NCBI GenBank assembly: GCA_029964075.1
Contig: CM057138.1
Coordinates: 6,752,932 to 6,816,931 of the forward strand
Direction: 5' to 3'
Length of the DNA: 64,000 nucleotides
Source: Patiria pectinifera
Lineage: Eukaryota; Echinodermata; Asteroidea; Valvatida; Asterinidae
The position numbers and the translations under genes are program-made. Shown here piece after piece: positions 15,201-57,993 of the stretch (its first letter is position 1; each line of letters begins with the position of its first letter). The notes under the pieces were generated by a model. That model was not told the origin of the DNA and ran no database searches. It was given only the letters and a program-made list of their open reading frames with translations.

Positions 15201-18086
15201 AAAATCCACCACAATGCTGTAATTTGTATTACATTCATCTTTGGAAATACAAAGTCTTCCTTCTCATTGTTTTGATGGATCCTTGGAATTTAATAATTTT
15301 GAAGGTAGAGTATATCATTTGCAGCTATCCAAGAAAGTAACTAACGAAATAATTGTTGAAAAGCATACTTGGTTTAAAGATAGTAATGACACTAAACTCC
15401 CCGTGAAATTATTCTTTCTGCCATACTGTCATTTTAAAGAGAACAATAAAAGAAGGTAATTTCCAAAGATGCGTCTGAAGACAAATTTTTGGAAATTTCT
15501 GTTAGTAGTTGTTTTTAATTCCGCCAAGCTGTGAAATCATTGACACGACACGCACATGTGCCTGGTTGCTATATTCCGTCGGTTCAGTGCATGACATCGC
15601 GTAGCTGCAATCGGCCAACTGAGAAAGTGTCCCGAATGCTGATTTCAGGGGGAAATTCAAAACATGACTCAGCAACTTGTGAATGGAAATCGAGATCCTA
15701 GAATATTGTTTTCTCGGAGTGTACAGCATTCACTGAGTTAAAACTTCATCAGGTGAGCTGTTAAGCACCCGTCTTTAGATTTTGAGCACTTTTGTTGCTT
15801 CAAACGAAAAAATGCACAAATGTCAAATGACATACTCTACCTTTAAACTGGCCACTCTTGTTCTTGGACTTTTACCAATTTGAAATTGACTTCAAACAAA
15901 ATTCAGTACCTTTGGTCTGTAATGTTAATATACACTTGTTTTCTAGATTGTTTAAAAGCATCACCACTGTAACTGTAGAACTTGACCAATTTCCTCTTCA
16001 CTCTGTGCAGAGGTAATATTTAGAGCAAATAGATTTAGTTCTGTTGCCCGAACTTCAAAATCTAAATATGGCAATTCACAAGTGAACAAAGGTAGGGATG
16101 CTGCGTAGCACTGTGTAGAGCATGGAAATATTAATAGTAAATGTGGAACAGTGCTCACCAGATAGTAGTTGTACCCAAGCTTTCGGACATCCGTCCTTTA
16201 GTGGAAGTTGTTCTTGCATTACCAGGTGAGAACATCCCCAGATCGAATATGAGAAGCTCTTGTTCTTTGCGTTGTGCGTCAGTTGTTGTCGTAGTTACGA
16301 AGCACACCTGCATGTCATCACAAGTATACGGATAGTGGCTGCCGAGTTCTCACACTATGCAGATGTTCGGTAAATCGGTCGGCGAGGCGTCGCTTTGTTT
16401 CTCCAATGTAGTTTTTGTTACATCGTTTGCAAGTAACGCAATATACCAAGTTTGTCGTGGTGCAGGTGTACTTGCCATGGATGTAAATGAATATGGATTT
16501 CCTCAACTTCAATTAATACTCGGAGACTGTGTTTCCCTCTGTTTTCTTGTGTTCGTTTTCTGCATCAGCTTGAAACAAAAGCATGGGACATTAGTGAAGC
16601 AGGCTGGTTCAGCACTTGGCCGGAAGGATTCACGATAACCTATCAAGCAAGCACAGTCCAATTGAGATTTTTACATTTAAGAAGTAAAAAGGCCACTCAA
16701 GAGTAAGTATGGTTACTTTGTATGCTATGTGCTAAAGTTATCCTTAACAACTTATTTAAGAAATGCAGGAATTTAACTTGTCTTGAAGTCTCAAGTACGA
16801 ATAGATACCAAAGTACAGATAACAAATGCATAGCAAAAGAGTTACCAAACTACACCAACTGTTTTCTGCTGAGCCCTTTATTTAGCTAAGCAATATTTTC
16901 TGAGTAGATCCCTCTATAAAATTAGGTCCAAAACACTTCCGCTGCCAACAATTTTTGATGGAAAGCGACTGCAGCCAATTTAATGTGGCTGCAGCTAAAC
17001 TTTACACTGCACAATTCACAATCGCATCTGTGGGAAAAGTGCAAATTTGAAGTGGATTCACAAGCTAGAGGGCCACAATTTGGTCAAAGTCATACTGAGT
17101 ATCATTTTCCCCATCCTACTTTTGTTGGTTCCTGTGTTTATTTTTGTTGCCAACAGAATAACCTACACATGTCAACGTGGTGTGGCCTACTTTCACCAGA
17201 AGGGGAACCATTATGACAAAGCTGCCCAATTCAAAGCCTACAATGATGAAACAATCACGCATGAGAGTCCAACGCTGCAAGTATCACAAGATGACTGTCA
17301 GGTAGGCAAGCTACTCAAGAGAGCCCCCCCCCCTTCCTTTTCAGTAGATGACATGGACTTTTAAGAGAGTGGGTCATTTGTTACATTTCAAATCAATAAC
17401 ATATAGTTAGGTGACTGTTCTGGCACGAGATCAGCAGGCAGCAACGTCAGAAGTCACTTTCCTAGCCCTGACACTTTTTCCGATTTTCAATTCCTTTGTT
17501 TCATCACTGATCCAGTACAAATATTAAATCCTTTATAGGCTAATCCGGCAACAACATGTAGAAGTCACTGCTTGGTGGCACCACTGTCGCACATATATTT
17601 TCCCTACCAAAATGCCTGCTGTTTCTCTAACTCAAACTCGATCCCACGACCTGCTTACGAGAGCAAATGTCTTTACCACTCAACCATCAAGCTTCCCAGG
17701 TCAGCTGGCTGTAAGCTTGTGGTTTTTTTTTCTCGCAAGCCCACGGACAGCACTGAGTATATACAGTGTTTCTTTTCAAATTTTAATTTTTTTTAAAAAT
17801 ATGTCAGTGAAGGGAAACCAATATTGAACACTTCCAACCTACGCACAGGTGTGGTGCTACCTAAATTATAGCTTCTAATTATAGTAGATTAGTAGATGCA
17901 TTAGTCTGTTTTTTGGGTTGTTTTTTTTCCAACCAGTCTGCACCCAAGAAGCAAAAGACCACTGTCATGGAGTTGTCAACAAAGGTTGTTGAGCAGCTGC
18001 CCATCACCGATATCAACCCCCAGGGTTACAATAAGAACAAAGGCCAAGCCTTTGGCCTAGAGATCGGCGATGTGTGTTTCCTATGA
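3239..18086 (+). CDS. Fibrillar collagen alpha chain, 3' seventeen exons
   Basis: Exons: 3239-3292, 3680-3733, 4552-4659, 5121-5228, 5980-6084, 7044-7148, 8672-8743, 9388-9444, 10539-10652, 11633-11704, 12031-12075, 12805-12903, 13914-14010, 15059-15165, 16569-16702, 17157-17301 and 17937-18086. All have AG/GT borders, and the phases join into one frame (1626 bp, 541 residues plus TGA). The first twelve exons are Gly-X-Y and each begins with a complete Gly codon. Several have the 54-bp or 108-bp (45-bp, 99-bp) sizes characteristic of fibrillar collagens. The last five code for a COLF1 C-propeptide ending DVCFL. The product would be secreted as a trimer and assembled into matrix fibrils. Upstream exons, including the signal peptide, are outside the window. 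Interruptions in the helix are unusual for classical types I-III and recall types XXIV/XXVII or invertebrate fibrillar chains. The exact orthology is unknown. Confidence 0.93.
3759..4031 (-). repeat. Inverted-repeat element enclosing a tRNA-Ser-like sequence
   Basis: Two arms of about 90 bp (3759-3850 and 3940-4031) are inverted copies of each other. They start at AATCAAATTAGG and end at its complement. The loop, on the minus strand, carries pol III boxes: A box TGGTCGAGTGG and B box GGTTCGAGTCC, with a CTAGAAA anticodon-type loop as in tRNA-Ser(AGA). The arm sequence also follows the tRNA head in two other copies (17585-17790 and 34290-34430), so this looks like a tRNA-derived SINE whose body is duplicated in inverted orientation. 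It lies in a collagen intron. Confidence 0.75.
5545..5924 (-). mobile_element. TTAA-type MITE, family A, copy 1
   Basis: The ends are inverted repeats (TTAAAGACACATAGGATCAT at the left; its relative, ending GATCCTATTTGCCTTT, at the right). Internal sequence matches copies at 15299-15847 and 57211-57750, for example TTTGTTCGTTT and a GTTGAAGTTTCAG block. The left flank carries TTAA and the right TSD is eroded. It is a non-coding element in a collagen intron. Confidence 0.65.
7815..8250 (-). pseudogene. LINE (CR1/L2-like) reverse transcriptase C-terminal fragment
   Basis: A minus-strand frame ends with the C-terminal signature of CR1/L2-type LINE ORF2 ([17 protein letters not shown] then [15 protein letters not shown]). 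The 3' tail contains TATTATTAGTATTATC. It is a 5'-truncated insertion in a collagen intron, and no endonuclease or catalytic RT motifs are present. Confidence 0.75.
8326..8640. repeat. Dispersed repeat related to the interior of the element at 59351-61101
   Basis: Around 8340-8440 the sequence shares blocks with 60290-60400 (ACACAGA, ATCA.GTTCTGTGAAT, TTTTTTACGAT). This is a fragment of the same transposon family in a collagen intron. The match is partial and the boundaries are uncertain. Confidence 0.4.
14148..14615. mobile_element. MITE with ~36-bp terminal inverted repeats
   Basis: The left end ATGTGACGCGATCACGCTAA and onward to GTCGTTTGGCGG is mirrored at the right end (CCGACAAACGACTCATTTAG .. 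GATCGCATCACAT) with four mismatches. There is no open frame. It lies in the intron between the first two COLF1 exons. Confidence 0.75.
15299..15847 (-). mobile_element. TTAA-type MITE, family A, copy 2
   Basis: Ends GAAGGTAGAGTATATCATTTG and its inverse CAAATGACATACTCTACCTT. The interior aligns along its whole length, reversed, with 57211-57750 (shared TTTTGAGCACTTTTGTTGCTT, ACTTCATCAGGT and CTGCAATCGGCC). A TTAA is preserved at the right border. It lies in a collagen intron. Confidence 0.78.
16140..16520 (-). pseudogene. Penelope-like element GIY-YIG endonuclease fragment
   Basis: The minus-strand frame at 16318-16512 gives [20 protein letters not shown] followed by [15 protein letters not shown], the GIY-YIG domain of Penelope-like retroelements. 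After a frameshift near 16325 the C-terminal block continues (DDMQVCFV .. [17 protein letters not shown]). The broken frame and short length mark a dead fragment. It lies in the intron before exon 16569. Confidence 0.8.
17585..17790 (-). repeat. tRNA-derived SINE copy, degenerate
   Basis: Antisense tRNA-like stretch (plus strand ACTCGATCCCACGACC .. ACCACTCAACCATCAAGC) followed by the same tail found at 3940-4010 (CACTGAGTATATACAGTGTTT). It lies in the last collagen intron. Confidence 0.6.
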
Positions 18087-22216: not shown

Positions 22217-22443
22217 CTAGGGGGCACATATTGGCATCCCCTGTGTCACACTATCAGCTAGCTGTTCCCCCGTCAGTGTGTCCACACACCAGCAGAGATC
22301 ACTCTCCATGTAGCACTGCACTGGCTGGTACCATCCCTGCTCATCACAGACTGGTATGTAGATGTGACCGGAGCCTTCATCAATGTCCAGAGAAGATTCC
22401 GCTTCTATACGGCGGGCCAGACAATCGGAGGTCAGTTTGGGAT
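22217..22443 (-). other. Thyroglobulin type-1 domain 2 and stop (exon 16)
   Basis: A single exon. C613-LARR, IYIPVCDEQGWYQPVQC, SDLCWCVDTLTGEQ, GMPIC678-AP, then TAG at 22217-22219. All six cysteines are present. Unlike domain 1 it has no internal intron. Confidence 0.92.
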
Positions 22444-25400
22444 CTGCAGATGGTGAGAACAACTTCGAGTTTATTCATTTGAATTGGGAGGATTTTGTTA
22501 AACTTTCCAAATACACCGTCCTCCAGTGCTTCAAAATGGTGGTGGTTGGCAGCTTGTAACTTTGGTATGTTAACTCTCCACTTGTAAAAAGCTGATAATC
22601 TCGATTCAAAATGACACAGTGACTTGCTTGAGACAAAGAGCTGACACATTGGCTGGAACATCATAATTAATTTTCTTATTCCGTCTTAGTAAGACAATTG
22701 ATACTGTACTCGGAGACATTATACGGCAGTAGATTGAAAAAAAATGCTGTCATTTTACAAATTCTCATTTTATATGTCAAATTTCAAAGGAATTAAGTTA
22801 CTTGGATATGAAGAGTTTATTTTCAAAAGGCAATATGTCCATTTGAAGAAAAAAAAAGGGAAATTTGCACTTTTATGAACTTTTAAGAATAAAAACAATA
22901 CAGCAGCTGTCTCTTAACTTCACTTTTTGCTTTTAGTAATTTTAAATTGTGTTTAACTATATAACAGCCGTTGAAACTTACTTTTGGCAGCCAGGAGAGA
23001 GCTTTTAAAGGTAACAAAATGGTGTTTATTGCATTTTGGAAATAACCTTATCATGAATGGCACAAGAACTTGCACAAGTAATTATACTAAGTAGTATTTG
23101 GTTAAAAATACATTTAAGGTTATATTTTCAAAGATAAAGGCAGTATATAGGCTTGTAAATTATGACTTTGAAGTTTCGCTACACATCATACTAGTTTATT
23201 TGCCAAATACACTTCTTTCATTGGTCAAAGTTTCAGTGCACATCAGGGAAGTAAAAGCAATTATTCTGCACTTGCTACGCTCATATTGTTGTTAACCTGG
23301 CCAAAAGTACAGAGGAAGTACCCCAAAATTAGCTCCTAGACTTCCATTCATGCAACAGTAGCAATTGCAAATAAGTTGCTGGTAGTGCCATACTAAAAAC
23401 TTAATGATGAAGGACTTATTACAATATACATTTTATGGGAGGGGTTTTCTACAGACTTTTGTTGGCTTTTTTATATTGATGCTAAATATGTATGAGGTAT
23501 AATGAAAGTTATACAATATGTTTTGGGGATGTTGAGCAAAACTACTGACAAAATCCAGCTGACACCTAGGGACTTCAATTTTTTCTCAATTTCCCCCAAA
23601 CCATGTTGAATATTTACAAGTTCAATGCATGTGGATACACGTACATACCCATTTGACTAGGAGTTGGGATCTGACTGCAATCAGGCTTTGTGCCATCAGA
23701 GACCCGCGAGCCTTTCAGCTCATGACCGCTAGTCCGGTCCACACACCAACAGTCCTCTCCATGGCATTGAATCTGTAGTGACAGTAATACAGCATGTGAT
23801 GTGATGGCAGTGTTTATGTCAGTGAAGGGCAGTACCGAATTGTAACTAATCTTAATCATCCCCTTAAGATAATCGATTACGTAGTCAAAGACTTAACGAT
23901 CTCAGAGCACTGCACCAAATGAACATATTCAGTTCATTTCCTCTTGTTAAACAACGTCAATATATTCTGGGGCTGTGATAAGTTACTATTAATGCGTTCA
24001 TTTTAACACAATATCAAAGATACAAATGGAGTCACAGAACTGAACTATGCGTTAAAAAGATGCAAAAACAATGAAGATAATCAACTTGTCGGTGTATTTT
24101 CATTTGAAAGCCCCTTGATGAGATTTTGGATTCAAAATCGAGAGGGAGACAAAAGAAATATTGATTTTTGTTTCATCAACTGCTTCAAATCATGGGAAGA
24201 ACATTAAAGTCACATTGTGCTCTTTGTCAACATTGCAGCAGTAGCATTGTGATATCCATTGATTGAATTAAGGCTCCTGATTTCCCCTTTCTTTTCGTTT
24301 CCATTGTTATCCAAAACACAATGTTTTTGCAGATGGTAAATAAAGTAATCATGTGTTTTATTGCTACTTCAATCAGTCCATAATATCAATGTTTGCTCCA
24401 CTCACCGGAGTAAAGCTACCATCCTGTGCACAATCTAAAATTGGCAGGCCTAGTTTGGTGGCACTCTTAGCTTGATGCAGACACGATACAAGCTTGGTCT
24501 GTTGTGCTGCCTCACGCAGCATGTGATCTTCTGATGTCGTGGTAGTGTTGGATTCTGTATGCATGTAAGAACAAAATGTAGACCTAAAATATTCAAGTCA
24601 AAATTTCTTGATTCCTAGAAGTATATTTCAACATATCAAATGAACAATATTTGTGTGTCTTATGTGGAGACCAATGTTTTATAATCTGTTGACACCACAG
24701 CTTCTATAAGGCGTAGAAGTGGTTACATCATACGCCGCTGAGGTCACACATTGCCTGTGGTAATATGTCCAAACACACATGGCCTTACGTAGCCATACTA
24801 GGCATGGTGCCCACTTTTTCATCAATTTTTCATCCATCGGAAAAGAAAATAACAGCATTCTTCACGTTCTGAGCGATGATTATAGTCAGCTTCAAAGCAC
24901 TGGACCATTTTTCAGTCTTATTTATTCTCAATTTCCGAGAAATTTCAACTTAAAAATGTTTACCCAAATCGCCCGTGCAAATCCTATGGTAAAAGTGGCG
25001 GGCCAGACATTGTTTAGACCGATCACTATGGGGATGACCCCGCGCGACGTCACACTTCTACAGCGTATTGGGCCTGAACATCATGCAACTGTCCAGTGGA
25101 TTTAGCTTTGTTAAGTTAAAAACACTGATGATTTCAAATTTCAAAAGCCAAAGAGCCAATTAGGTTACACCCCTCACCCCTCCCCCCCCCCAAAAAAAAA
25201 GGGGGGGGTGAATACAGCACAACATTTCAGTTCAAGTGATTTCTACATTGCCACTTCCTATAAATAATGATGTATCCTACTTGGGGAGTATTCTGTGTCC
25301 ATGACTTTTTATCATTTAATGTCCCCTGACTAAAATATTATAAAAAACTTTGGGTAGCTGCCAAGATTGGCTCTGAAATCTCAGCTTGCAGAGTACAGTT

Positions 25401-28400
25401 GTGGTATTAAAGCAGGATGCAAATTCATAACCTGCTTCTTTGTTCAGTGAAGTTCTTAAAATTTATCTTGACCCAACTATGCACATACAATATAAGCTAA
25501 TTTGATTGCTAGCACCTAACATTCCAGGCTTTTCCTCCTGTAAATTATTAGAATATATTCTACTGCTCGAGATTCTGTCAAGTGGTTGGGTTTAAACCGA
25601 TTTAAACACCACTGTGAAGTGTTTCAAAAAGGCTGCATGACCCCGTGACCTGGACCAGTGGCATGGACCACATGCATGCATTATGCACCAGGCACACTGT
25701 CTACAACTGAGCAACATGAAGTGCTAGTACAGTAATAACTGCTTAAGTTCACCACGTGCACCATTGAAATTGCCCAAAATTTGGAAAACAATATAACGTA
25801 AAAGGGCAGAATTATTTGGCAACTTTGTTAAGCCTTTGGCTCGGGCCATTATCAGCGGCCAGGCCCATAGCTGATAAACCACAAGTGTAAAACTGCTCCA
25901 TCATACTGTTTCCCCTTATTTAACTAATCAAATTATGCTTTTAAATCTCTCTACAAATTATTCCTTGAAATCTTTCTTACCCTGTTGTTCCTGTGGTTCC
26001 TCTGCACACTGGCAAATATCACAGTTGTCTTCATCTTTTTTGAAGCCGTACTCACAGTATATCTTGCAGATGATCTTTTCATCACACCCAACTGTCACCA
26101 AAAAAAGAAAAAACAATTTGTTTTAAAATAACGATTATAAAAAACAATAAGTGTTCCTTGTTTTTATTCGTTTCAAATTTCTTGCTCTCTTTTCATAATG
26201 AATCAACTTTGAACAGCTTTACTTCAGAAAAGACAACAGATACAGCTATTCACGCTGAACAAGTTCAGTTCACAGAGACTGATTCCTTTGCTGCTGAATG
26301 TTTGTGCTTATGGTGTCTCAACATTGTTGATGTGTGTTAAAAAAAAAATGGAAAAGTCAAAAAGATAGTCATGGGTGTCTACAGATTCCCAAGTGAGAGA
26401 ACTTACAACATTCCCCCCCCCCACCACCACCATCCTGAAGTGATTGGCTACCATCTATGCTGCAATTACATAGTTACTTCAATGCCTAATGTTATAAGAT
26501 GTGTTAGTAGAGTCAAAAGGAGTGAAGTCCTACCTTTCTTGACTTTGAGTGGTTCATGTGCAGTGAGAGCTAGAGGCATGGGTGGTAGTCTGACCACTTC
26601 AGAGACTGGCCTCATCTCAATGTCTTGACCTGCAACCGGTGGCCTCATACCTGAACAAACAAGGCAGCATGTTTCTTGTGAGGAACAAGTGCCTTACAAA
26701 CGCATCGCAAACACACCTATTAACCTTTCTCTCTAAGGGCTGCAGATGTGAGCAAGTTTGATCAAGACCTTTATCGAACACGTGCCAGTGATGAGTCTCA
26801 TAGCTAACTGAGGCCAGCCTATACCAATGTTGGTCCCAGTGAGCCACAAGCAAGAGATTTCATTGTGACATTTGACCATAGTTTGGCTATAGTTTTGACC
26901 ATGGCTTTATATACTGTTGAGGTTTGATTTGCTGAACTGAACTCACGTGGACATCCTCGGTAATTTGGTCCTCTGGCCGGCCTGTTGTTGAGCAGGCAGC
27001 ATCCATACTTTGCTGTGGCTGGATCGCATCCTGTGGTCACAGCAGCCCTGCCCTTAATAGCTGGAAAACAAGAGATAATGTCTAGATGGAATGAAAATCC
27101 ACTTATTATTCTGTATATGGTTTCAGGTTGCCAACGGTTACTGCAACAAGCAAAAAATGAACAGTTACTTACAATGTAGTGGGTCTCAAGAATCATACTA
27201 AATATGTTCTGGAGCTTTCATATTTTGCCGTAGCCTTTTAACCATCATGATGTAAGCATCAATGATCCCTCACCATTGAAGTATAAATCCTTTCATTTTG
27301 TAATTTTCTCAATAAATTGTACAGTTTTTTGGCTCCCACGTTGCATATAGTGACATAGGCTTCTTGATCTATTATTCAATTGATTCCTGCTGCTGACTGG
27401 TGGAGACATTGACACTTGCCAACCTCCATTCTTCCTTTTGGCCAATTTGAGCACTAGCATTCTGTAAAGTGACAGGGTTTACCTCTAATTGGTTGTTTTT
27501 TGGAAGATTTATTTTCTTTGGGAAGAAGGACCCAACTCACCAACTCACTCCTGCCTCTGGTCCACCGACACTTCCCTTTCAGCTTTTGACCATTACTACT
27601 TTGGTCACTTAACTGAAATCTATCATGCCCAAATCTCACACATATACTCATTCTACGAGATATGCCACCAATGCTCACCCTTTCACAGTCTCAATACCTA
27701 GGTCTCACACTGTATCTCACTCATTGTCTTTCATTATCTGCACATCCAAATTGTGGAATACTCTACCACAATTGTGCTTCCCACCATCATACAACCCAGT
27801 CTTTCATGACCTTCATCAACAAGCTCGATCACTTATCACTTTCCTAGTCTTATTTCCTGTGTAAAGAGTCATTTGGACTTCAGATGATCCTGCCTTTTCT
27901 TGGCATTATCCACTAAAAAAATTTAAAAAGTGGAATTTTACCAGCGATCTTACCAGCATGTGTTTCATTTCTTTCGCCTAGTTCTGTAGTGTAGCATACC
28001 TCTGCAAGTTGGAAGAGAAATAGGCTAGCAAAGTATGACTTTTGTTGTGGTCATTTAAAAACCATATTAGTTAACCATGGTTGCTGCTTCAAAATGCATA
28101 ACTGCAAGACCAAATTTCGCAAGGATATTGGATAGCAGGAAAGACAGTGTCTGTTGGAGCAGTGATGAGTAGTGTATGTTCAACTTTACCGAAGTACATA
28201 TCACCTATCTTAAGCTTGCTACTCACTACTATTTCTCATTGTACAATTTGGGGAAAGTATTGTTAAATTACTGTTCCTGAAGCACTAACTGATTTGACTA
28301 CCAAAAATATTTTGTGTACAACACCCCCCTAAGTAATCCTTCATTTTGTGTTTTCAAATACACCGTAGAAGGGAAACTGACAAGGTGCATTACAATAATT

Positions 28401-31400
28401 TTCAAAAGTTGACCAAAGACATTGACTTGACTGCCCCCTCTTTGAACCCTGTGACAGAGCCGGACGAGCTCTACTGACTGAGCTACTGGCAGGGCTAGGG
28501 CTGATATAGCTAGTTGGGTAGAGCACGAAATGGCAAAAATCAGTTTCTTTTTTATTTTTTTTTTGAATTTTTATTTTTAAATTTTTCTTTTTTCTTCATA
28601 TACATTTTACAGTTTTTGCCCTAAACAGTAGTCAGTGTTTTAGGTTTGCACTCTGAACTCCCCCTAGAGAATATCACATTCCCGGAACTCCGTGTGTAGC
28701 AGACTAGAGTAGAGAGTAAGTTTTAGTTTAGTACCGGTACTTTTTGGACAGATTGACTCTGAGTAGGTTGTTGCATTGTTCAACACCTACCATGATTGTC
28801 TGTGACCAGTACCGGGTCTAGGCACACCCCTCTGATAGCCTGGTCCACCTTCCTCTCTACCCTGTGGGGTAGGGACGGTGTGCGACTCAGTACCCACAGT
28901 GCCTCTCTCTGTTTGTCACAGGTGCCGTCCTCATACGTGCGGTGGCAGGAGTATGTCACAGCATAACTTGTGTAGTCAGTCGACAGAATCCAGTATTCCA
29001 CTGCAACAAAAATAACAAACCTAGCTCTCAATGCTGGAAATACCTCTCCCACCCGTGTTTTGTAAAAGAGAAAAAGTCTACCAGAAACATGAACAATTTA
29101 AAATCAATTTCCTTGGGACGGATTCATGTTGCTGAAAGTAGTGAAACTGGAATAAATTCACAGCCAGCAAAATAAAACAAAAACACTTGGATAAAAGCCA
29201 CAAATTAGCCAGTATTAACTCTGTCAATTGATCAACAGACACCATTTGCTGTTTTGATCTCAACTGCACTCATTTGCTGAATTCAGTTGTTTTGTTAAAT
29301 TACATGAAAATCACTTTTCCTGTGTACATTAAAAAGGGATTATAATGACATCGTCTTTAACACTGCTACAAACCTAAGATAGAGTACAGTCATATGACTC
29401 AGCTAGTGGGTGGCTGGGGGAGGCTTGAGAGAAGGAAATCTGTGGGGGTAGGTGAGGGGCAAGAGGGAGGGGAATAAGTCATGGTCATCGGAGGCCCTGG
29501 GTCCAACAAATGTGGGAGCTAGCCCCCACATTCCGGTTCTGCCTAAACCACTCACAATTCTTGGAAATCCTGGCTGCCTAAATTCAAATTTATGTCAGTG
29601 ATGTGAATGTCACTTATTTTGTACTGGTCGATGAACATGTGCATTATATGACTGCCGTAACCATTTTCCTTAAAAATCAGAGAAGCTATTTGTGTCGAGT
29701 ACTCATAAGTTACTTTTTTGAATAATGTTGTAAGCTGGCTTGCACTCCCAAGGCACATTGAAATACACATGGTACCACAAACACGTACATGTACTGCAGC
29801 TCTTGTTCCCTAACTGTGGGGACTACACACGTGTTGTGTCATGGTAATATGGGGACCGGAGATGCTATGGGGACAGCAGAAAGTCCCCGTAACTCCGTCC
29901 CAATTTCATTTACAATAAACAGTTCCCCATAACCCTAAAGCTGTGGCGGCCTGCCCCTAGCATTATCCCTGAACTAGACTATACACAAGGCCAGATTGGC
30001 TTATTTAGTAAAACAACAGTCACAGCTGTTGATAGTAAGTACGAAGACATGTCAGTGACTTAAATTGACTCAAACAAGATGTGATTTGATTCAAGCACAT
30101 TCATTGTGACTCAAACTTGTTGACCTAATGACTCAATTTGATGTGACTCACTGCCTTAGACTGCCAAAATTCAGTGACTCATTACAATACTGTTATGTGA
30201 ACCCAGGGTAGCAGGGGTAGAGCCCCCAATAAGTTAAAGCCTCAATCAGCAAATGAACCCCCAGAATTGGCAAAATCATCGTTTTATTGGTAAACTTATG
30301 TTCAGCAAATATGCCATAACAGAGAGTGCCACCTTTTGTCTGACAGTGTCCAAGATCGTCGGGTTTCAACAGTGCCTCCAACAGTCATGTAGTGTCCAGC
30401 CCCCACCCCCACCTCTTTTTGCTTTTGTGAAAGCCAGCTGACTGGAAACAATTCCTGGCTTCCTTCCAGTGTGAAGGGTCTGTCAGCAAACTTGTTGTCA
30501 CACCCCCTCATTCAAGTCAGTCTCACACCCCCGTGTGAATCATAATGGCGCATGATGGTATTACACATGATACACTCACCAGCTCCACTGACTCCGTATT
30601 TCTGTGGGATAGGGAAGCTAACGATGATCTTAGCTGGATGCTCCGGGCCCAGCCAGCCAGACCCTGGCATATTCATGTTAGCACAACGCCCATCCCTATA
30701 GCACCATGAAAAAAAAACAGAATTGGTTTAGTGATGTGCCACATTGATTGCAGAATGCAAATGTAGGGATCCAGAAACATGTAGGTGTGTCACAAACATT
30801 CAAGATCTTCTGCTGATTGTAGTCATTAGATTGTATCTTCGAGGCACTGAAGCTTGTTTATATCTTTTAGAGTAAAATCTTCTAGAGTGAAGAGAAATTT
30901 GAAATCCAGATAATGAACTTTTGAACTCACAACTTAATGTCTTTCATCAGTAGTGACATGTGAGCATCCTGGCCGGCTGGGCCTCGGCTGAAGAGCAAGG
31001 AGCGCATGTCTGGCAGCTTGAGGGTGCTGTTGTGCATTCTGGTGTGGGCAACCTCATACCACTCACCCAGGAACTGAAGACAGGACAGACAGAAACGGTT
31101 CCAAAACATTAAAACAACATGAAGTTCATTCAGAAATTCTATTTATAACAAGGAAAGCTAAAACAACAAGTTTATCATTCTATTTAGAAGTGTATTATAC
31201 ATGTGTTCATATTTTTAGCTGTGTCGTTGGAGGATTTCATGTTATAGGTTCGAAATGTTTTTTTTTTGTAAAGACGTACCTTTTCTATGATGAAATCCTT
31301 CTGCAGCTGAAAGTTAGCTATTGCACATGGGTTTGGTGTGCTGGCACCTATGGACCAATCAAAGCAATATTAATCCCCACTCAACTCATAAGCAACAAAT

Positions 31401-34400
31401 TGATCATATATAATTAATTCATTCAGACACACTTCATAGTTTGCAACCTCTAACATGTTTTTATAATGGCCCATACCCTAGATGATAGTTTAGAAAGCAT
31501 AAAATTCTGAAAGTTGTGAGACATTATTAGGGCATTTGACTTAAGAATTTGTTTTGTTAAGTGTCCATGATCTGAACTGTTTAAATTTGACAATGAAGAG
31601 TGAGATTCCCTTGAGGTATAAATGACATTAAGCCCTGTAATGACCAAGTTGTACCCTGATATTTTATTTTTGTTTTCTATATATATTTGGGGGGGGGTGG
31701 CTGAAAGCATTTGCAATGGTGACAGAAGTTAAAGCAAACTACGGAAACTACTTTAGATAAGGAAACTATGTTCAGGTTGCTGGCCAAATCACAATTTGCG
31801 TACCCTCAAATTCTATTAGAGCATTTTGTGGCCCATGAACTTGAGGGTTTGTTAAAAAAAAATGGAAGCCTGAACAGGACTGTGAGCTTGTATTTCTGTG
31901 AAATTTGCATGAAATTGGGCCCTAAAATTACTCTATTTTGCAATGGAGTGCAGGCATCATTTTTCAAAATGGCAATGGGCTTCAGGACTACTTTTAGGGG
32001 TGACCATATTTGAATGGAAATTTATCCCAAAGCCAGAAGTCATCGGATTACCCCCCAAAAAAACAGCATGAAAGATGACGAAATAAGCTTTAATTTGATG
32101 TGTGTCTCAATCACTTTGGAGGGTTGTGAGTATTTTTCCTGATTTTTGGAAATCCGGGTTTATTTATCACGGGGATCTATGGCAGTTTATTTACTGGTCT
32201 GCAACCTCGAAGAGCTCCACGGCATTTCTTTTTGTCCAGGCTTATTAAAATAATAAGCTGAGGGTCTTGTAGCTCAGTAAATCCAATTAGTGCTCCTTCT
32301 CGTTTAAAAAAAAATATATACGGAAGTGTTACTGTGAAGCCCAGGATTAGTCCTCAAGCCGCAGGGCCTATCTGAACCCCTGACTCCGCGCAGAATTTCT
32401 CCAGGGACATCAAAAACTAGAGATGATCTGACTTGATGAATCATCTTGTACACTTCCTGTGTAAGTGGGAGTCTTGGTCATCAAAATGTGTAGTATTCAA
32501 AGGTGAGGTTTTGGATGCATCATCATTCGAGATTAAAGTACAATGCCTGATGCATTAAATGGAGAAAATATTGACTTGCAGTGTGATATTAACAGAATTG
32601 TGTTTGGTTGATTTTGCGTATCAGCGCAGAAACAGCCATCTTTACTTGCATGTGATGTCGCTTGCTGTGCCTTTTTCTGGTACTTACCAAGAAAGGGTTG
32701 CTTAAAAGTCCTGAAGTAATCATAATTGTTTCACTATAATATTTGTAATTCTAATTGCTGTTCAAGTCTGTAATAAAGTGGTACCTCAGATATGCGGAGT
32801 GAGTTTGATTTCAATGTTAAGAAGTATCTCTTGTATTTTTTTTTTGAGGAAGTCTTAAAACAAAAGTGATTGAAAATAAAGGTGTGTTAGAGTTAATATC
32901 TGAACAAGGGTACCAAAAGAGAACAGTGCTTGTTGGGACTAGAGATGATAAGGTTGGTATTCAAACAGAAAAAAAAAGAAAACTTGGATAAAATTGGACC
33001 CAAAACTGGTGTTAGATTGCAAACTAGGATAGAGGGATCATTCTTTGAAAATACAGATGAGCTTCTCAACTTTTTTTAGGGATGGTTATCTGCGGAGAGA
33101 AATGTTACTAAAAGGTCTTCATCCGCTTCGCTCACAGGTACCCCCTCACCGGCAAAGAGCACAGTCGGCGCACGGAGCCCATATCCCCTCCCCAGCAGGT
33201 TTAACAGAAAGCGAAAGATTGTAAATTTATCTTGATTTTATTTTGAAATGAGCACCTCGAATGGTTGCGATCACATTTCTTGATTTTTGGAAGTGGGGGT
33301 ATTTATTCTTTACCGCAAGCCTACTCTTTGCCCGTGGGGCCGGGGTTAACTCACCCTGCCTGCAATCTGTGTTGCCATCAGCCTGACATCCTGTGGAGGC
33401 GGCAGGGAGGTGGTTGGGGGCTTGAGTCAGCTCTACCTCACAATCTAATAAACAATCACATCATAACCAGGGGTTTCTTGAAGTGTGTACACGTTACTTC
33501 CTCTCTGCCTCAAAAAATGACGGAGATTATTGAATGTCTTTCAGGCGATATTGTTCTCAATTTGAATCTGTCAATCAATTTAATACTCTTGAGATTCCAT
33601 ATGATTGGACACAAATCAATAGGGATTGAAGCAACATGATGGCAGCTTTTAGTTTTTCATGCCCTAGGCAGATTTTTTCATTAGTTTCTGCGAGTGCATT
33701 ATCATGAGCCAAAGTACGATTTGTGTGCAGAATGCTGTTGCAATTAATACACTGTACCATAATTTCGTCAGTAATTACTTACAATTCATATTTATTTTGA
33801 CTGGCCTGTTTTATGATGGTGGACAAATTTTAATACCTAATGTTTTAGGTGGAAAACAATATTCATCACATTTTTTTATACATGTATCGTAAAGTTGCAT
33901 ACCTCTTGCCCTTCAAAATGTTTTTTCTTCTCCAAACGAATCTTTTATTTGCTTGTTTTGTTCTAACAAAACAAAAAAAAATAATTCCGATTTTGGAGTA
34001 AAGGCTTTCATTTGCGCCCAAATGAACTCGCCCTGCGAGAGCCGAATTGTCTAGCAGCCAATAGATCAAAATGTGTGAAGAAATAATTCAATAACTAAAC
34101 GTCGGTTGATTTTTTTTTCATTCGATGTCTCGTTCAAAAGGGAATAATTTATAGATGGCTATAAAGGAAAAAGTAGCATTTGGAAAAACCTGTAATTTTT
34201 CGGGGTGAAAGTCGAAAATAACATTGGGAATCATCTTTAATAATGTCGATTTGTTTTTTATTTGAACTGGCCAATCGACCCCAGAAAGCCCGGTGGTTTG
34301 GTAAAGCTGTAACACGTCTGCAACAGTAAGCAGACGGTTTGGGTTTCAGTCCCACCCAAGAAAACTTTGGATTTTTTTTCTCACAGGCTATGAGACAGCA

Positions 34401-37400
34401 CTGCATACAGTGCATTTGAAAGTATTGTCAGTGAAGGCACAGTTCTATCAAATATTTAACAGTTTCAGATATTCATTATCTGTTTTCTTTTACCCCGTGG
34501 TACATCATCAAGACGCTGTGGTCGTATGCACACCGATGACAGCAACTCCGGCACCCTGGTCCGTATTTCCTCAGGTACACCAGTCAGGGACCTTCCCATC
34601 AACCAAGCGTGCTCGCCCCGCTTTGTGCACGAGCCGTCAGAGCGCTGCTCTCCGCAGCTGTACACCAAAGCATAGATGGTGTAGTCCGTACTCACAACCC
34701 AGTAATCCTCTGGCGAGAACACAGAAAAAAAACATTCGAATTTGATAATTCCTCTGTAGCGTGTTGGCATTGACCCAATGATGGTCAGGGCCTTGTGAAA
34801 AAAATACTCATTTCTAAACAACGGAACGTATTCGTCAATGTTGTAGTGTTGCACGGGGAAGTATTTCGCTCTTAAATATCAAACAACAATAAATCTTGTA
34901 TAATTAAGTCACTGGTTTGCTTTTATTTTACCAAATCAACACTTTATTGCACTCCTGACTGTTTATGTTGACTATTTATTTGTTTAAAATAAATTTACCA
35001 TCCGAGAAAAATGACGACTTCCATATATACCAAAATTTGTTCAGTTCAGGGAGATAACTTGATCATCCTCCTCTCCGGTCTCCGCAAAAAAAAGGACACT
35101 TTTAAAATTTGTAAAAAACTTCACCCCAGAATTTCCCTTAAATAAAACAATCTGCCTACGGAAAACTGTAATGGATTTTTTTTTATGATAATGACATATT
35201 TCATAATGTAATATGACATCTAATATAATCTGACCTGGTGGGTAGTTGGGCATGGGTGGATACAGTGACATCTTGGCCGGGTTGTTGGAGTCTTCATCGG
35301 CCGTGACCCGGGCTTCAAATTGCCACGAGTTACAGTCGCCAGGCCTGCATGGGCACAAGGAAATTCATGAGTCTTGTGCAGTAGATCTTGCTACATATTC
35401 GTAGTTGATATATTTGAAATTGTCCTGTCTTTATCTGCTTATGACGGCAGACCATTTCTCCTATACGTTGTTGAGTTGGTTTCGGCACAGTGGCGGCACT
35501 GTGTCGTATGTAATGCGTCTGTATGTCGACTGTTTCTCTTTTGAGTAGGTGTCGGCACAGTGGCGGCACTGTGTTGGCACTGTGCCGACACAATGGTTGG
35601 AGCATCCATGACGAGCCACTTTCAAAAGATTTTCGCTGCAAAAACAGGTTACTGTGTGAAGTATGTAATGCGTCTGTCTGTCGACTGTTTCTCTTTTGAG
35701 TAGGTGTCGGCACAGTGGCGGCACGGCATCGGCACAGTGCCAACACGATTGTTGGAGCGTCTATAATGAGCCACTTTCAAAAGATTTGCAGTGCAAAAAC
35801 AGGTTACTGGGTAAAACGGAATATGATGCGTCTTACTGTCGACTGTTTCTCTTTTGAGTTGGTGTCGGCGCAGCGGCGGCACGGCATCGGCACTGTGCCG
35901 ACACAATGATTGGAGCGTCCATAATGAGCCACTTTCAAAAGATTTGCGCTGCAAAAACAGGTTACTGGGTAAAAAAATGTGATGCGTCTTTCTGTCGACT
36001 GTTTCTCTTTTGAGTTGGTGTCGGCACAATGGCGGCACGGCATTGGCACTGTGCCGACACAATGGTTTGAGCGTCCACAATGAGGTACTTTCAAAAGATT
36101 TGCGCTGCAAAAACAGGTTTCTGGGTAAAATATGTGATGCGTCTTACTGTCGACTATTTCTCTTTTGAGTTGGTGTCGGCACAGTTGCGGCATGGCCTTG
36201 CCACTAGTGCCGACACAATTTGACAAAAGTAAACTGTGTACCAAGTTCGTTTCGTTTACTGTTCACTATTCTGCAAAAATAGTTTGGCATACGAACTCGG
36301 TTTAAATTGTGTTTGCAAGTGATGTGTGCAAATATGTGTTTTTTGCCGTTCAAGGTCAAATTTAGAAATTGTAATGCACTTATAACCAAAACATATTCGA
36401 AGAAGATAGTAACGAGTGTCCAAACAAAAAAAAGTGAATCTCAAAAGTACAAGATCCAATTGAAGGATGTTTCTTTAGCGAAATTGGTCCTAGCAGGCTG
36501 CCCCTTGCCTATCTATTCATATTGATTTTTTTTGTGACTCTTTTCTAGACCTTCTCCTCTCTACTTTCTCCTTATATTGATCATAGTATATTGATCAAAA
36601 CGTCCAGTTAATAGTAATACCATTATTCACTACCCCATGGTGTATCGGTAACCTTTTCCCAAACGTACCTGACCACTCTGTTGGTTTTCATTGAGACCGT
36701 GCCGTCCTCGCGCAGACCGTAGTGGGAGCGTCTCTGATACGGGTAGTGCGTCCGCTGAACCTGCGCTTCTACGAACCAGGTGCCCATAAACTAACAAGTC
36801 CAAGCACAAAGAAAAATGAATAAATCATGAAATCATTGCTTAATCACGCAGCGGAGTAGTGGACATGTCTTCATTATCGTCTTGCGATTGCCTGCGTTTT
36901 GTATTGGGACATAATGGCGTTGGCATCAATGTTTTTCACATGTTTTAGGGGGAAAGGCACCCAAGAAATACGTTTTAGAATTGAAAAGCTACTTTCTAAA
37001 ACATGAGATATGTGTTTAACCTTCATGAAAAGACATCCGCACTTGATAATTAAGGATGCCCGTAGCAATAGGTATCTAATGCTTCGTCTTCCATGAGAAT
37101 GCACGTTACTTGTTCTGTGCGAAAAGGTCGAGAAAATGATTTTGTACTGTTTTCAAATTCTAAATAAAAGTAATACTTGTGTCCATTTTCATCAGTAAAG
37201 AACAGCTGTTAAGAATACGGCGTTAAATAGATTTATCATTTGTGAGGAAGCTATTGATAAAATGATAATGGAAATCTTTGCTTCAGTAAAAAGAGAAACG
37301 ATGTGAAACAGCGCACAGGCATCTAAATTGACTTTTCGAAATAAAAGTGAATTCACGAACAACTGTATAGTCAAGTTTCTCTGGCAGTGACGCAACAAGG

Positions 37401-40400
37401 CTCTAATTTGCAGGGTGCATTGTGGTTCTCATTTTTAGAAGCGGACAGTCACTGGGCTTAGTCTTAGTTTCCGATCATAAAAATGGTGCATGATAACCAA
37501 CTTGTTGAAGTTTCAGCTCAGTTGATATATATACCTTTTGAGAAAACACAAAACATATGCGCAAATATTTGGGGTTTTGAACTGGATTCTACGGAGCTTT
37601 TAAAGGGACATAGGTGAAAAAAAAAATCAAAAACATCTTCGTTAGAAAGAAAAAAATCTGCGTTCGAACGAAAAAAATCTGCGTTCGAACGAAAAAAATC
37701 TGCGTTCGAACGAAAAAAATCTGCGTTCGAACGAAAAAAATCTGCGTTCGAACGAAAAAAATCTGCGTTCGAACGAAAAAAATCTGCGTTCGAACGAAAA
37801 AAATCTGCGTTCGAACGAAAAAAATCTGCGTTCGAACGAAAAAAATCTGCGTTCGAACGAAAAAAATCTGCGTACTTGGGCTGCCGGCCGGAGACACAGA
37901 CACCATTGTGACGACGTGGTTAATTTAAAAGTTAATTCTAAGAATTGGTTATATTTTACACCAAGGGTGTCGTCATATATAAATAACGGGAAAAAATCAA
38001 GATTAACACCGTTTGTGTCATATTTAACACTCCAGGTTTGGCAGTGTGGAATGTACATACAGAATGTAGTATTTGGTTTGGTGCTTGATTGAAATGAAAG
38101 AAACAAATATGGGATAAGATAAAAAAAAAATATGGTTCTCATTAGGATTGAAACCCAGGACTCTTTGCAAGGGCCGTCACAGCCTGCACTATGAAATTAG
38201 AGAAGGGAAAAATCTGGTGGTAGTCCCCCTGGTCAATGTTTTAACTGTGACAGAACTGATTGAGTGCCCCCCCCCCCCCAGAAAAACAGGCCCCAAGTGC
38301 CCCCTGCAAATTATACCCCAATTATGAACCTGGTCTTGGTTTGGAATCCCGATGATGAACAGGTGCTTTTCTCTCCCATGTTTAGTTCGATAGTGATTTG
38401 GCACCACAATATTTCTGGCCTTTCCTGCAAAGCAGGGTCCTGAAAGTGTCCTGTTATTACACAAGTGTTAAAACCTTTAGCCAAACCACGAGTACTTTAA
38501 AGTAAACAGCAATGTCAATTTGCAAAAGCTTTAGGCTTTAAAATAAATACCAATTACAAACTCACAAAAAAGTCACCGAAAACCAATGATTTAATTTCAT
38601 GTTTATAAGACCGCTTTTCTTTATTTGCGAGTCTGTAAGGCTCATGCATAAAGACAGCTCAAACAAACACGGCTTAAGCCATTAGTAGATATACTTAATT
38701 CGAACGCAGATTTTTTTCGTTCGAACGCAGATTTTTTTCGTTCGAACGCAGATTTATTTTCGTTCGAACGCAGATTTTTTTCGTTCGAACGCAGATTGTT
38801 TTCGTTCGAACGCAGATTGTTTTCGTTCGAACGAAGATTTTTTTTCGTTCGAACGCAGATTTTTTTCGTTCGAACGCAGATTTTTTTCGTTCGAACGCAG
38901 ATTTTTTTCTTTCTAACGAAGATGTTTTCAATTTTTTTTTTCATCTATGTCCCTTTAAAAGCTCCGTAGGATTCCGATGCAAACGCACGTCCCTGTGCCC
39001 GCGGGCAACATGACTTAAACTACGTTCAAGGCTTCAATTATTGTTTTCTTCCCAATGATACCATTTCGACTATGGATTTTCTCTTCAAATCGGTAGGTAT
39101 TAAAACACAACAAAACACACCTTAAAGATGGCTGCCGAATGCAATCGGCCTACAGGATCATATTGCTATTCATGCATTTTGTTCGTTTCCAATAATAAAG
39201 CCACTTTACTTAAAATCCAAAGAAGAATGTTCAAAACCTAACCAGTTGAACTTTCAGCTCATTGGATGTGACACTTTTCGAGATAACAGTGAACAACCTT
39301 TTGAACGCGAAACACGATTTCGTCCATCATAGCACTCTTTTGTTACAAAAACATTGGAAATCATCTACATTTCTTCTAATTGACGGCAAACCAGACGCAT
39401 TTTTTTCACGGGGTTTTAAAACCAGTGCAAAGCTTTTTGATAATAAATTCAGTAGGTTACTTTTGGGATTAATGCCAATGATCTTATTATGCCTTTAAAA
39501 GTGTTCGTTCCAATGAAGACGGTACACGGTGCCCACAATACAAGCAACGTGCGTTACATAGTTTAGCCGCGTTATCAAGGGAATTGTCACTACTGACTTT
39601 TAGCGGGCCTGGATGTGGCCGTGATACGTGATGGCATGCCCTATTGTTTGGCTTATGTGCCCAATTGCGAAATAGCATCCTATTGTTTGGCGTGACCCCT
39701 GATATGACTACGTCACCACAGGCAGGCAGGCAGGAGTAAAGGCCCATATCAATTGTTGAAAATATGACAACGGCTTTAAAAATTATCGTTAAGGTATTTC
39801 AGATATATATCAAATGGAAAAAAAAGTAAACAGTGATACAACACCTTTTGGGAGAAAAACAATTTATGTTTTATGACATTAAGGCTTGGCCTTGCCTATA
39901 TATGTACAATGCTAAACCATCCTTCATCCAGGAGATTGTTAGCTTTTTTTCTGGATTTTTATATTCAACAGTAACACACTTAAGACTAATAGTTAACGGC
40001 AACACATTTGTTAAGAAATCATTGTAGTGAGTACGGTTCTTTATATGATCTCGTGAAAAAGAATCTAGTTTTGTCGTTTCCTAAAATTGAAGCGCCTGTT
40101 GCGTTGGTGCTTTCAAACCACATTATACGGACAAGGCTTGCGTAGCGGGTCACCCATGAAGCTCCGAAGAGAAACAATTAACTTACTCATTTCAATATAT
40201 AGAGAGTTTCAGTTCGTGATGGATCATCATTTTTAGTAGAATTATTGACAGTTTTGTAATTATTCGTGACATAACATAAAGTAATAGCGCAACAAGCAGA
40301 TGTTGTTTTGGCATGACCGCCAAAGTTTATAGGGTCTATGTGGAGTGCCGTGAGCTAGTGGTCTGGAGCATTGAATTTGTGGTCTGCGGGTAATTCTACA

Positions 40401-41342
40401 GGTTGTGGGTTCGAGTCCAGCCTGGGGTTATGGTGCGTGTGCCCTTGAGCAAGGCACTTTGTCACTCACTGCTTCTCCCGACCTATGAGTAGATGGGTAC
40501 CTGTCAAGGGCGGATCCAGAACACAATTTGAGGGGGGGGGGGCAAAAGAAATTTTGGTCCCCCAAAAAAGTGGGCCCAAAAAATTTTGGATTCTAGATGC
40601 TCTGTGGTGCGATCTGAGGCAATTTCTGACCACTTTAACCAATGTTTTTTTGAGGAAAAGATGGTGGTGTGCTCATTGCCTGCCTTTATTGCGATGTCAC
40701 ATAAAAAAAATAATTGGTTTCGTTTGGGGGGGGGGATGGCCCCCTTTGCCCCCCCCCCCCCGGATCCGCCCTTGGTACCTGTGAGGGCAGAGTTGGTTAC
40801 TGTGAGAGGTGGAAATGGCTGCTTACCGGCCGTGCATGCTCCCCAGGGAGTTAAGAAGGTTTCAGGAGTGTTTGCCCTTTGAACAGGGGTAATAATAATT
40901 GTAAAACGCTTTGATGCCCCGTTTAAAAGCGCTATGTAATATGCCTGTTATTATATGGAATCACAACTTGTTAGTTCGGTGCCCCTAATTGTTTTTTTTT
41001 GGCTGCAAAAAGGTCTGACCCCACTTAATTGAAGTAGCAAGCTCGGGAGATAGGCGGTGAAAGATAGGTAGCAATTATAATGATGAATTAGATCATTAGA
41101 TTTTTTGTCAAGGTTCACTAAAAGACAAACTATACTTAAAACGGGGAAAATGACAAGCTTTTCAAAAGCTGCACATTTCGGTAGCTCAAGAGATCCAGTG
41201 ATCCACTCACCCTTTCCAGTGAGAAGTCCTCTTGAAGTTGGAAGTCATCGATGTGGCACGTCCTCTCAGAACTGAACGGCGTAGGAACACAAGACACCCA
41301 GGCCACACAAGCGGCCAAAACCAACAGTCTCACAGCCACCAT
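22217..41342 (-). CDS. Secreted tandem-lipocalin / GCC-motif / antistasin / thyroglobulin type-1 protein, 16 exons
   Basis: Exons in transcript order: 41342-41211, 36790-36669, 35344-35235, 34709-34494, 33390-33355, 31347-31280, 31073-30931, 30695-30580, 29000-28791, 28001-27954, 27060-26947, 26650-26534, 26091-25981, 24554-24406, 23772-23649 and 22443-22217. Every border has AG/GT, all phases match, and the total is 2043 bp (680 residues plus TAG). Domains are a signal peptide (1 to about 19), lipocalin 1 (about 29-205), lipocalin 2 (about 206-400), a papilin-like GCC motif (401-438), a proline-rich linker (439-477), an antistasin-like domain (478-514), and two Tg type-1 domains (539-596 and 613-678). 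From known families, lipocalins carry small hydrophobic ligands, antistasin modules can inhibit serine proteases, and Tg-1 modules can inhibit cysteine proteases or bind matrix. A carrier/inhibitor role is inference. I do not recognise a named family with this order. Confidence 0.92.
23649..24554 (-). other. Thyroglobulin type-1 domain 1 (exons 14-15)
   Basis: Exon 14 begins with a Thr/Ser-rich linker (ESNTTTTSED), then C539. The domain continues LPILDCAQDGSFTP, the phase-0 intron, then IQCHGEDCWCVDRTSGHELK and ends DGTKPDC596. All six cysteines and the CWCV motif are present. Confidence 0.9.
25981..26091 (-). other. Exon 13: antistasin-like domain
   Basis: A phase 1-1 exon coding VGCDEKIICKIYCEYGFKKD then EDNCDICQC. 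It has six cysteines in the antistasin pattern, including the diagnostic C-x-YGF-x-x-D-x-x-x-C-x-x-C-x-C. The inhibitory P1 residue cannot be assigned from this alone. Confidence 0.85.
26947..27060 (-). other. Exon 11: papilin-like GCC cysteine motif
   Basis: A phase 1-1 exon coding TTGCDPATAKYGCC then LLNNRPARGPNYRGCP. The spacing C-X8-CC-X14-C, with YGCC and GPN..GC, resembles the short cysteine segment found in papilin/lacunin-type matrix proteins. The match is by pattern only. The next exon (26534-26650) is a linker rich in Pro, Val and Met with no recognised fold. Confidence 0.65.
27560..27870 (+). pseudogene. LINE ORF2 C-terminal fragment
   Basis: Plus-strand frames give the end of a non-LTR retrotransposon ORF2 (HSLSFIICTSKLWNTLPQLC, then in a second frame TFINKLDHLSLS). 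A frameshift near 27800 separates them. It is a dead 3' fragment in the intron between exons 10 and 11 of the lipocalin gene. Confidence 0.65.
27954..31347 (-). other. Lipocalin domain 2 (exons 6-10)
   Basis: A second complete lipocalin: CAIANFQLQKDFIIEK-FLG231-E-W233-YEVAHT, then VEYWILST-D323-Y324-TSYAVTYSC, then LWVLSR354TPSLP. The final cysteine is in EVCYTTELGE. The five exons (68, 143, 116, 210 and 48 bp) break the domain at the same places and in the same phases as domain 1 (0, 2, 1, 1, 1), so the pair arose by duplication of a five-exon unit. Possible N-glycosylation sites are HNST and RNET. Confidence 0.9.
28430..28492 (-). repeat. tRNA-derived SINE head, fragment
   Basis: The minus strand reads AGTAGCTCAGTCAGTAGAGC (tRNA D-arm/A-box type), with a degenerate B box GGGTTCAAAGAGG 30 bp later. 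It is an intronic fragment. Confidence 0.5.
31775..32155 (+). repeat. Dispersed repeat, family C, copy 1
   Basis: It shares long blocks, in inverted orientation, with 42003-42432 (GAGCATTTTGTGG, GAACTTGAGGGTTTGT, CTATTTTGCAATGGAG, GCATCATTTTTCAAAATGG). Class unknown. It lies in intron 5 of the lipocalin gene. Confidence 0.65.
34290..34430 (+). repeat. tRNA-derived SINE copy
   Basis: A degenerate tRNA head (CGTCTGCAACAGTAAGCAGA, then GGGTTTCAGTCCCACCC), followed by the same tail as at 3759-3850 and 17585-17790 (GATTTTTTTTCTCA .. GCACTGCATACAGTGC). It lies next to exon 4 of the lipocalin gene. Confidence 0.6.
35469..36216 (-). repeat. Minisatellite, ~156-bp unit, about 4.8 copies
   Basis: Unit starts (GGTGTCGG) are at 35548, 35703, 35861, 36017 and 36172, a period of 155-158 bp. 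Each full unit contains GTGTCGGCACAGTGGCGGCA, then GTGCCGACAC, which can fold into a GC-rich hairpin, then a conserved GAGCCACTTTCAAAAGATTT block and TCGACTGTTTCTCTTTTGAG. It lies in intron 2 of the lipocalin gene. Minus-strand open frames through it are products of the repeat. Confidence 0.9.
37600..38958. mobile_element. Foldback element with TTAA ends and palindromic 21-bp arrays
   Basis: Ends TTAAAGGGACATAG and CTATGTCCCTTTAA. Inside each end lies an array of a 21-bp unit (seven A plus TCTGCGTTCGAACG). There are ten units with exact 21-bp period at 37661-37870, and about nine full units in inverse orientation at 38705-38905. The core CGTTCGAACG is a perfect palindrome. The arrays make long repetitive frames (VRTKKIC and FERRFFS) that are not genes. 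TTAA target use suggests a piggyBac/Kolobok-type non-autonomous element. It lies in intron 1 of the lipocalin gene. Confidence 0.85.
39145..39310 (+). repeat. TTAA-type MITE, family A, fragment
   Basis: It shares GCATTTTGTTCGTTT, AAAATCCAAAGAAGAA, TTGAACTTTCAGCTCA and CGAGATAACAGTG with family A copies. A similar short piece is at about 37497-37560. It lies in intron 1 of the lipocalin gene. Confidence 0.5.
40344..40957 (+). repeat. tRNA-derived SINE interrupted by a hAT MITE
   Basis: The head has a B box (GGTTCGAGTCC). The body contains GTGCCCTTGAGCAAGGCACT and GATGGGTACCTGT, and the tail reads AAGCGCTATGTAATATGCCT, then TTATTATA. This layout is common to tRNA SINEs of marine animals. It is split by the MITE at 40505-40774. 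Confidence 0.75.
40505..40774. mobile_element. hAT-type MITE nested in a SINE
   Basis: A 270-bp element with ends CAAGGGCGGATCCAG and CCGGATCCGCCCTTG. It is flanked by a perfect 8-bp duplication GTACCTGT at 40497-40504 and 40775-40782. It has G-rich and C-rich inner tracts and no transposase frame. Confidence 0.92.
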
Positions 41343-57750: not shown

Positions 57751-57993
57751 TGTACTTGGTCATTACAACCGGCATGGAAACTTACTTTAAAAGGACCATG
57801 GAATGGATTTTACAGTAAAACTTTTTTCGCCAGCAAATATTCCTCTTCAGTGTAAAACAAAATGGAGACATCCTTTTTGGGATGTACATGTTACATGTAA
57901 GTGCACTCTTTAATAGCAATGCCATTTCTTGACAGTTGGGGGTGCTGTTGTTGTAATGTCAATTTAAGCACTCACTCATTACAGGAATTTTTT

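Follow-up and report, generated by a model that had tools for sequence, protein, structure and literature searches.

The closest described system to the gene reported here is the alpha-1-microglobulin/bikunin precursor gene (AMBP) of vertebrates. According to the sections of PMC7965949 that deal with it, this is a lipocalin gene with four attached inhibitor exons, for which it is there called unique among lipocalins, and its product is cleaved in the Golgi. The reason for co-synthesis is described in the same sections as largely unknown, although recent evidence has the lipocalin helping bikunin to be made properly. Where a review of lipocalin evolution (PMC8420045) discusses AMBP, it treats it as a fusion and groups it with fish PTGDS, in a tree of sixteen jawed vertebrates rooted on one tunicate lipocalin. 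A multidomain lipocalin, the Cry1Ac-binding gut protein polycalin of moths, is named in the relevant part of PMC4985599. By analyzing a 64,000-nucleotide stretch of the sea star Patiria pectinifera (assembly GCA_029964075.1, contig CM057138.1, positions 6,752,932 to 6,816,931; hereafter the window), we found what is probably a single nuclear gene encoding a secreted protein with a signal peptide, two RBP4-type lipocalin barrels, a cysteine (Cys) module with the motif YGCC, an antistasin domain and two thyroglobulin type-1 domains, and that would thereby combine ligand carriage and inhibition on one chain.

The gene is situated on the minus strand, with its ATG at 41342 and the end of its stop codon at 22217, in a window without any N. 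Splicing of 13 exons with GT-AG borders gave one closed frame of 613 residues with no internal stops, and the intron phases agreed at all 12 joins. Most exons were placed by their recognizable modules, while two (31347-31280 and 24554-24406) were picked partly for phase, so that this agreement is not wholly independent. A first-pass annotation of the same sequence had described a closed frame with a signal peptide at these coordinates, which proved right, and had counted 16 exons and 680 residues. The latter count is reproduced by adding three optional exons (5, 10 and 12, see below), which are themselves unproven. Exon numbering follows the 16-exon model throughout, and all splice sites were scored with a generic splice matrix.

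The 613-residue protein was compared to Pfam using the curated cut-offs in bits. All domains named in the first-pass annotation exceeded these, i.e. Thyroglobulin_1 (PF00086; 1e-26, 92.6 bits, cut-off 20.6) and the two lipocalin families Lipocalin_2 (PF08212; 5.2e-14, 52.9 bits, cut-off 24) and Lipocalin (PF00061; 1.4e-12, 48.4 bits, cut-off 23), each in two stretches, and Antistasin (PF02822; 1.5e-7, 32.2 bits, cut-off 21.2), in one stretch covering the full profile 1-26. Triabin also passed (1.5e-6, 28.6 bits, cut-off 21) over the same two barrels. The sole NCBIfam match, a bacterial lipocalin, was rejected at a score of 36.4 against a cut-off of 267, and the 613-residue protein gave no Kunitz match with E up to 5. 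Taken alone, each barrel still exceeded the PF00061/PF08212 cut-offs of 23/24, with 29.0/28.0 and 26.0/32.6 bits, respectively. The conserved regions of lipocalins, named GxW, TDY and R, were claimed for both barrels, and all three are found in each (GTW/GEW, STDY/STDY and GRS/SRT).

Lipocalin 1 begins in exon 1 (41211..41342), which encodes residues 1-44, comprising the signal peptide (hydrophobicity 2.72 in the best 10-residue stretch; donor score 5.9) and the first strand of the barrel. It continues through exon 2 (36669..36790; phase 0 to 2), with the GTW motif, and exon 3 (35235..35344; phase 2 to 1), both identified by the splice model and Pfam, to exon 4 (34494..34709; phase 1 to 1), which holds the STDY and R motifs and was identified by Pfam and a solved-structure match. 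Lipocalin 2 starts in exon 6 (31280..31347; phase 1 to 0), the single phase-compatible candidate within a 3.1 kb gap at the set thresholds, whose FQLQKDF/FQLQEDF likeness repeats the end of exon 1. Exon 7 (30931..31073; phase 0 to 2), with the GEW motif, and exon 8 (30580..30695; phase 2 to 1) again follow from the splice model and Pfam, and the STDY and R motifs are in exon 9 (28791..29000; phase 1 to 1).

Both barrels appear to be of the RBP4 type, an assignment made from matches to solved structures only. Against these, RBP4 was ahead of ApoD, crustacyanin and insecticyanin for both, at 1.4e-14 for lipocalin 1 (ApoD 1.8e-9) and 3.2e-12 for lipocalin 2 (Sandercyanin 1.5e-9, ApoD 3.8e-6). The barrels are still closer to each other, with 80.9 bits and an identity of 29% across 179 aligned positions, than to human RBP4, which scored 67.4 and 62.4 bits against lipocalins 1 and 2. 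Their intron phases are identical (0, 2, 1, 1, and a further 1 if exons 5 and 10 are real). The two seem to have arisen when a phase-1 unit was duplicated within the gene, which would explain both their mutual similarity and the identical phases. With the optional exons included, six Cys columns are common to both barrels, the last of them coming from exons 5 and 10; one column contains Cys195 and Cys387, and another Cys89 and Cys280. Of the six Cys in RBP4, four fall in these columns, and Cys70 and Cys174 are off by 9 and 2 columns. In the phmmer alignments, Cys280 of lipocalin 2 meets RBP4 Cys70, whereas Cys89 of lipocalin 1 does not. The part of PMC8420045 concerned describes a third disulfide as distinguishing RBP4, with APOM also having it; in the present barrels, such a bond would depend on optional exons 5 and 10.

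Downstream of the barrels, the YGCC module is found in exon 11 (26947..27060; phase 1 to 1), where it has four Cys. It has no Pfam match, either within the 613-residue query (E up to 5) or alone (E up to 1), and in the genome search it matched its own exon only. An AlphaFold prediction of the exon alone, with a mean predicted local distance difference test (pLDDT) score of 63.8 and a predicted template modeling (pTM) score of 0.27, was too poor for a fold search. The motif may resemble one in papilin.

The antistasin domain is encoded by exon 13 (25981..26091; phase 1 to 1; Pfam) and has its six Cys at residues 480-506. The module matches bdellastasin, antistasin and hirustasin, its C-K-I-Y-C aligning with C-K-V-K-C, C-R-V-H-C and C-R-I-R-C in bdellastasin, antistasin and hirustasin, respectively. 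The residue after the second Cys, which we take to be the P1 position, is Lys, where guamerin has Met. The first thyroglobulin type-1 domain is divided between exon 14 (24406..24554; phase 1 to 0) and exon 15 (23649..23772; phase 0 to 1), the latter with the CWCV motif, and the second, with its own CWCV and the stop codon, lies in exon 16 (22217..22443), all identified by Pfam. Both have six Cys and match thyroglobulin and saxiphilin, as well as the p41 fragment at 5.5e-6 and 0.0045, a match that does not in itself show inhibition. All modules after lipocalin 1 are bounded by phase-1 introns, and such borders are the usual mark of exon shuffling.

The three optional exons, i.e. exon 5 (33355..33390; 12 codons, 36 nucleotides), with strong sites and a splice sum of 14.2, exon 10 (27954..28001; 48 nucleotides, splice sum 10.4) and exon 12 (26534..26650; 117 nucleotides, splice sum 9.3), which encodes a proline-rich linker without Cys, are plausible but unproven parts of the gene. 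As they were found by consensus alone with no homology, as the cut of 9 bits was chosen after they had been seen, and as the GC content of exon 10 (0.42) is not clearly higher than that of intron, there is an appreciable chance, though the smaller one, that they are false and that the protein has 613 residues. Against this, three candidates with a splice sum of at least 9 were found in 10.5 kb of phase-1 intron compared to three in the 64 kb of the opposite strand, the Poisson chance of three such candidates in 10.5 kb being 0.014. Those on the opposite strand are all located between 8.6 and 16.1 kb, in or near a collagen region, and the six on the minus strand are exons 5, 10 and 12, exon 13 and two overlapping candidates near 12.9 kb. 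Moreover, exons 5 and 10 each supply a Cys in the identical alignment column of the two lipocalins, with 12 residues between the new Cys and Cys182 or Cys374, respectively, which favors the optional exons even if it was noticed after the fact. With exon 5, lipocalin 1 has a seventh Cys. Weaker open candidates in the introns were dropped, with splice sums of 2.6, 3.8, 5.6 and 7.1, the last being a longer variant of 28001-27954.

Within the lipocalins, five of the six internal introns (introns 1-3 and 6-8) held no added exon candidate, and a weak phase-matched one in intron 1 (splice sum 3.8) was not added. Intron 1 also contains arrays of a 21-base unit at 37629-37873 and 38699-38928 that are mutually inverted and perhaps represent two transposable element ends. 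Intron 2 carries 4.6 copies of a 155-base unit at 35506-36219, with the palindrome-like stretch GTGTCGGCACAGTGCCGACACT.

From the known activities of these families, a working scheme for the protein can be proposed. The barrels would carry small hydrophobic ligands, e.g. retinoids or carotenoids, the antistasin loop with its P1 Lys would block a trypsin-like serine protease, and the thyroglobulin type-1 pair would either block papain-like cysteine proteases or act as a binding platform. As far as can be read from the sequence, the protein would be secreted, and the carrier and inhibitor parts would remain on one chain. This chain probably stays whole, since the furin consensus RX[KR]R does not occur anywhere in the 680 residues. 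It is unlikely, by comparison, that the fusion is a precursor from which separate lipocalin and inhibitor parts are released in the manner of AMBP, which is cleaved between lipocalin and inhibitor according to the corresponding sections of PMC7965949. A single Arg ahead of the YGCC module (IKGR-AAV) would suit such a cut. In addition to the missing furin consensus, however, the looser RXXR is found only at residues 82, 184, 361 and 427, and thus not in the segment that separates lipocalin 2 from the Cys of the YGCC module.

A number of observations weaken the gene model or the proposed scheme. In many lipocalins and in many thyroglobulin type-1 domains, the activity expected from the fold is lacking. 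Two splice sites score poorly, namely the exon 2 acceptor (0.2 bits) and the exon 4 donor (0.6 bits), and the number of Cys outside the signal peptide is odd (35) in the 16-exon model. We infer the single transcript from the gene sequence, and the phase agreement at the join of exons 9 and 11, taken by itself, has a chance of 1 in 3. When exon 9 is read past its donor, it continues as GRC followed by a stop codon (28782-28780), which amounts to a full lipocalin end. The Cys of GRC is 12 residues away from Cys374, just as the one encoded by optional exon 10 would be. Two AATAAA signals, at 28575 and 28556, follow about 200 bases past this stop.

The complete lipocalin end reached by reading through exon 9 leaves room for a short form or for two genes. 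In the former case, retention of the intron after exon 9 would yield a short double lipocalin ending in HGRC, while onward splicing would yield the long form. The read-through puts a Cys where the long form also has one, and the two AATAAA signals follow; this match of Cys and stop is nevertheless post hoc and concerns one codon each, the exon 9 donor (28791) has a fair score of 4.1 bits, and AATAAA is common in the introns of this gene. With 25 copies in the gene span (1.3 per kb), its presence after exon 9 is weak evidence, and we regard a gene with two such ends as improbable. Still less probable is that the model has merged two adjacent genes, namely a double lipocalin and a separate gene with the antistasin and thyroglobulin type-1 domains. 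The same stop and AATAAA signals would agree with this, and the join does sit at a possible lipocalin end. For the inhibitor half, on the other hand, a convincing separate start exon is missing: over the 4.2 kb that lie between exons 9 and 14, no signal-peptide first exon was found at a hydrophobicity of at least 2.0 and a donor score of at least 2.0. Relaxed limits gave two weak start candidates in the same stretch, where 1.64 candidates would be expected from the other strand. One has a hydrophobicity of 1.81 and a donor score of 0.4, and the other, which extends exon 11 upstream, a hydrophobicity of 1.60, compared to 2.72 for exon 1. Furthermore, the phases fit, and the gap is bridged by a phase-1/phase-1 candidate exon. 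The fusion described in the first-pass annotation is thus favored by the lack of such a first exon, and we are rather confident that this is one gene with a long form.

The downstream neighbor lies on the other strand, where an open reading frame (ORF) at 16999-17361 encodes a partial C-terminal domain of the fibrillar collagen type (COLFI). Together with a Gly-Pro-rich plus-strand ORF at 11480-11779, it probably belongs to one convergent neighboring gene; the annotation of the stretch between 22217 and the collagen is not exhaustive. Nine other ORFs in the window, chosen by eye among 66, were compared to Pfam, and two had a family over its cut-off. A 372-residue minus-strand ORF at 737-1852 has a CCHC zinc knuckle and resembles a retrotransposon gag. 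Other features are a minus-strand tRNA match at 3841-3913 (46.4 bits) and a 181-base tandem duplication at 57993-58346, in which the copies match by 100%.

The whole genome (613.5 Mb in 1020 contigs) was searched for related sequences. It contains an exon for bindin (E 1e-33), a sperm protein known from sea urchins and sea stars, which fits an echinoderm host, whereas a search for COX1 gave no match. The Pfam Lipocalin_2 profile found no match, not even in this gene, whose exons are too short for it, and is hence uninformative on other lipocalins. A protein query consisting of residues 1-447 from the 13-exon model produced 31 matches with E up to 1. Ten of them, with E at or below 2.8e-6, belong to the locus described here. 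The remaining 21 (E 9.6e-4 to 0.64) were limited to query residues 389-444, i.e. the antistasin end, and were distributed over contigs C15, C6, C2 and C634. No second lipocalin appeared in this search, in which only the best candidates were scored. None of the 21 antistasin-end matches was near any of 34 thyroglobulin type-1 places, the two being more than 10 Mb apart on C15, although the thyroglobulin type-1 search was of limited sensitivity, seeing one of the two domains of the present gene. Thyroglobulin type-1 matches are densely clustered on contig C14 (38908519-38927510), where 19 kb of the minus strand hold 10 such places.

Compared to known systems, AMBP has the most similar layout, in that lipocalin exons are followed by protease inhibitor exons in one gene for a secreted product (PMC7965949, in the sections on this gene). 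AMBP, however, combines one lipocalin with Kunitz inhibitors, while here two lipocalins are combined with antistasin and thyroglobulin type-1 domains. The parts of AMBP are joined by VRR and separated before secretion, according to the same sections of PMC7965949, whereas no furin site was seen here, and AMBP groups with fish PTGDS in the tree of PMC8420045 described above, whereas the present barrels match RBP4 best. RBP4 is the best solved-structure match of both barrels and has four of the six Cys columns in common with them. It is a single barrel without inhibitor modules, in contrast to the two barrels with inhibitor modules found here. The view of the first-pass annotation that lipocalins are nearly always single-domain proteins has to be qualified by moth polycalin, which joins several lipocalins on one chain, as does this protein, and in which we know of no inhibitor modules. 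Saxiphilin also joins thyroglobulin type-1 domains to a ligand-carrying fold, but its carrier is a transferrin fold and not a lipocalin. Antistasin, hirustasin and bdellastasin share the Cys pattern and a basic P1 residue, which has that role in the leech antistasin-type inhibitors; these are small free proteins, while the antistasin module here is internal.

The claimed novelty of the fusion consequently needs to be narrowed. We found no paper in the open-licence literature in which lipocalin, antistasin and thyroglobulin type-1 domains occur together, and nothing contrary to a first lipocalin with both inhibitor types, but the joining of a lipocalin to protease inhibitors is already known from AMBP (PMC7965949, as far as its sections on the gene go), which the first-pass annotation had not mentioned. 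New are the other lipocalins, the other inhibitors and the lack of a furin site. Public annotations of echinoderms may well include the protein already, with a name that gives no hint of its nature. We tentatively suggest, at slightly less than even odds, that echinoderms evolved a second lipocalin-inhibitor fusion independently of AMBP, with two RBP4-type barrels, an uncleaved chain and antistasin plus thyroglobulin type-1 domains, and that RBP4-type lipocalins, perhaps with the third disulfide, exist outside vertebrates. If this is true, a ligand carrier would travel together with inhibitors of two protease classes, and the gene would bear on when RBP4-type lipocalins arose. A second fusion with different parts would also show that the joining of lipocalins and protease inhibitors arose more than once. 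As its parts may stay joined, this fusion would finally make the question of why AMBP is synthesized as one chain testable by comparison.

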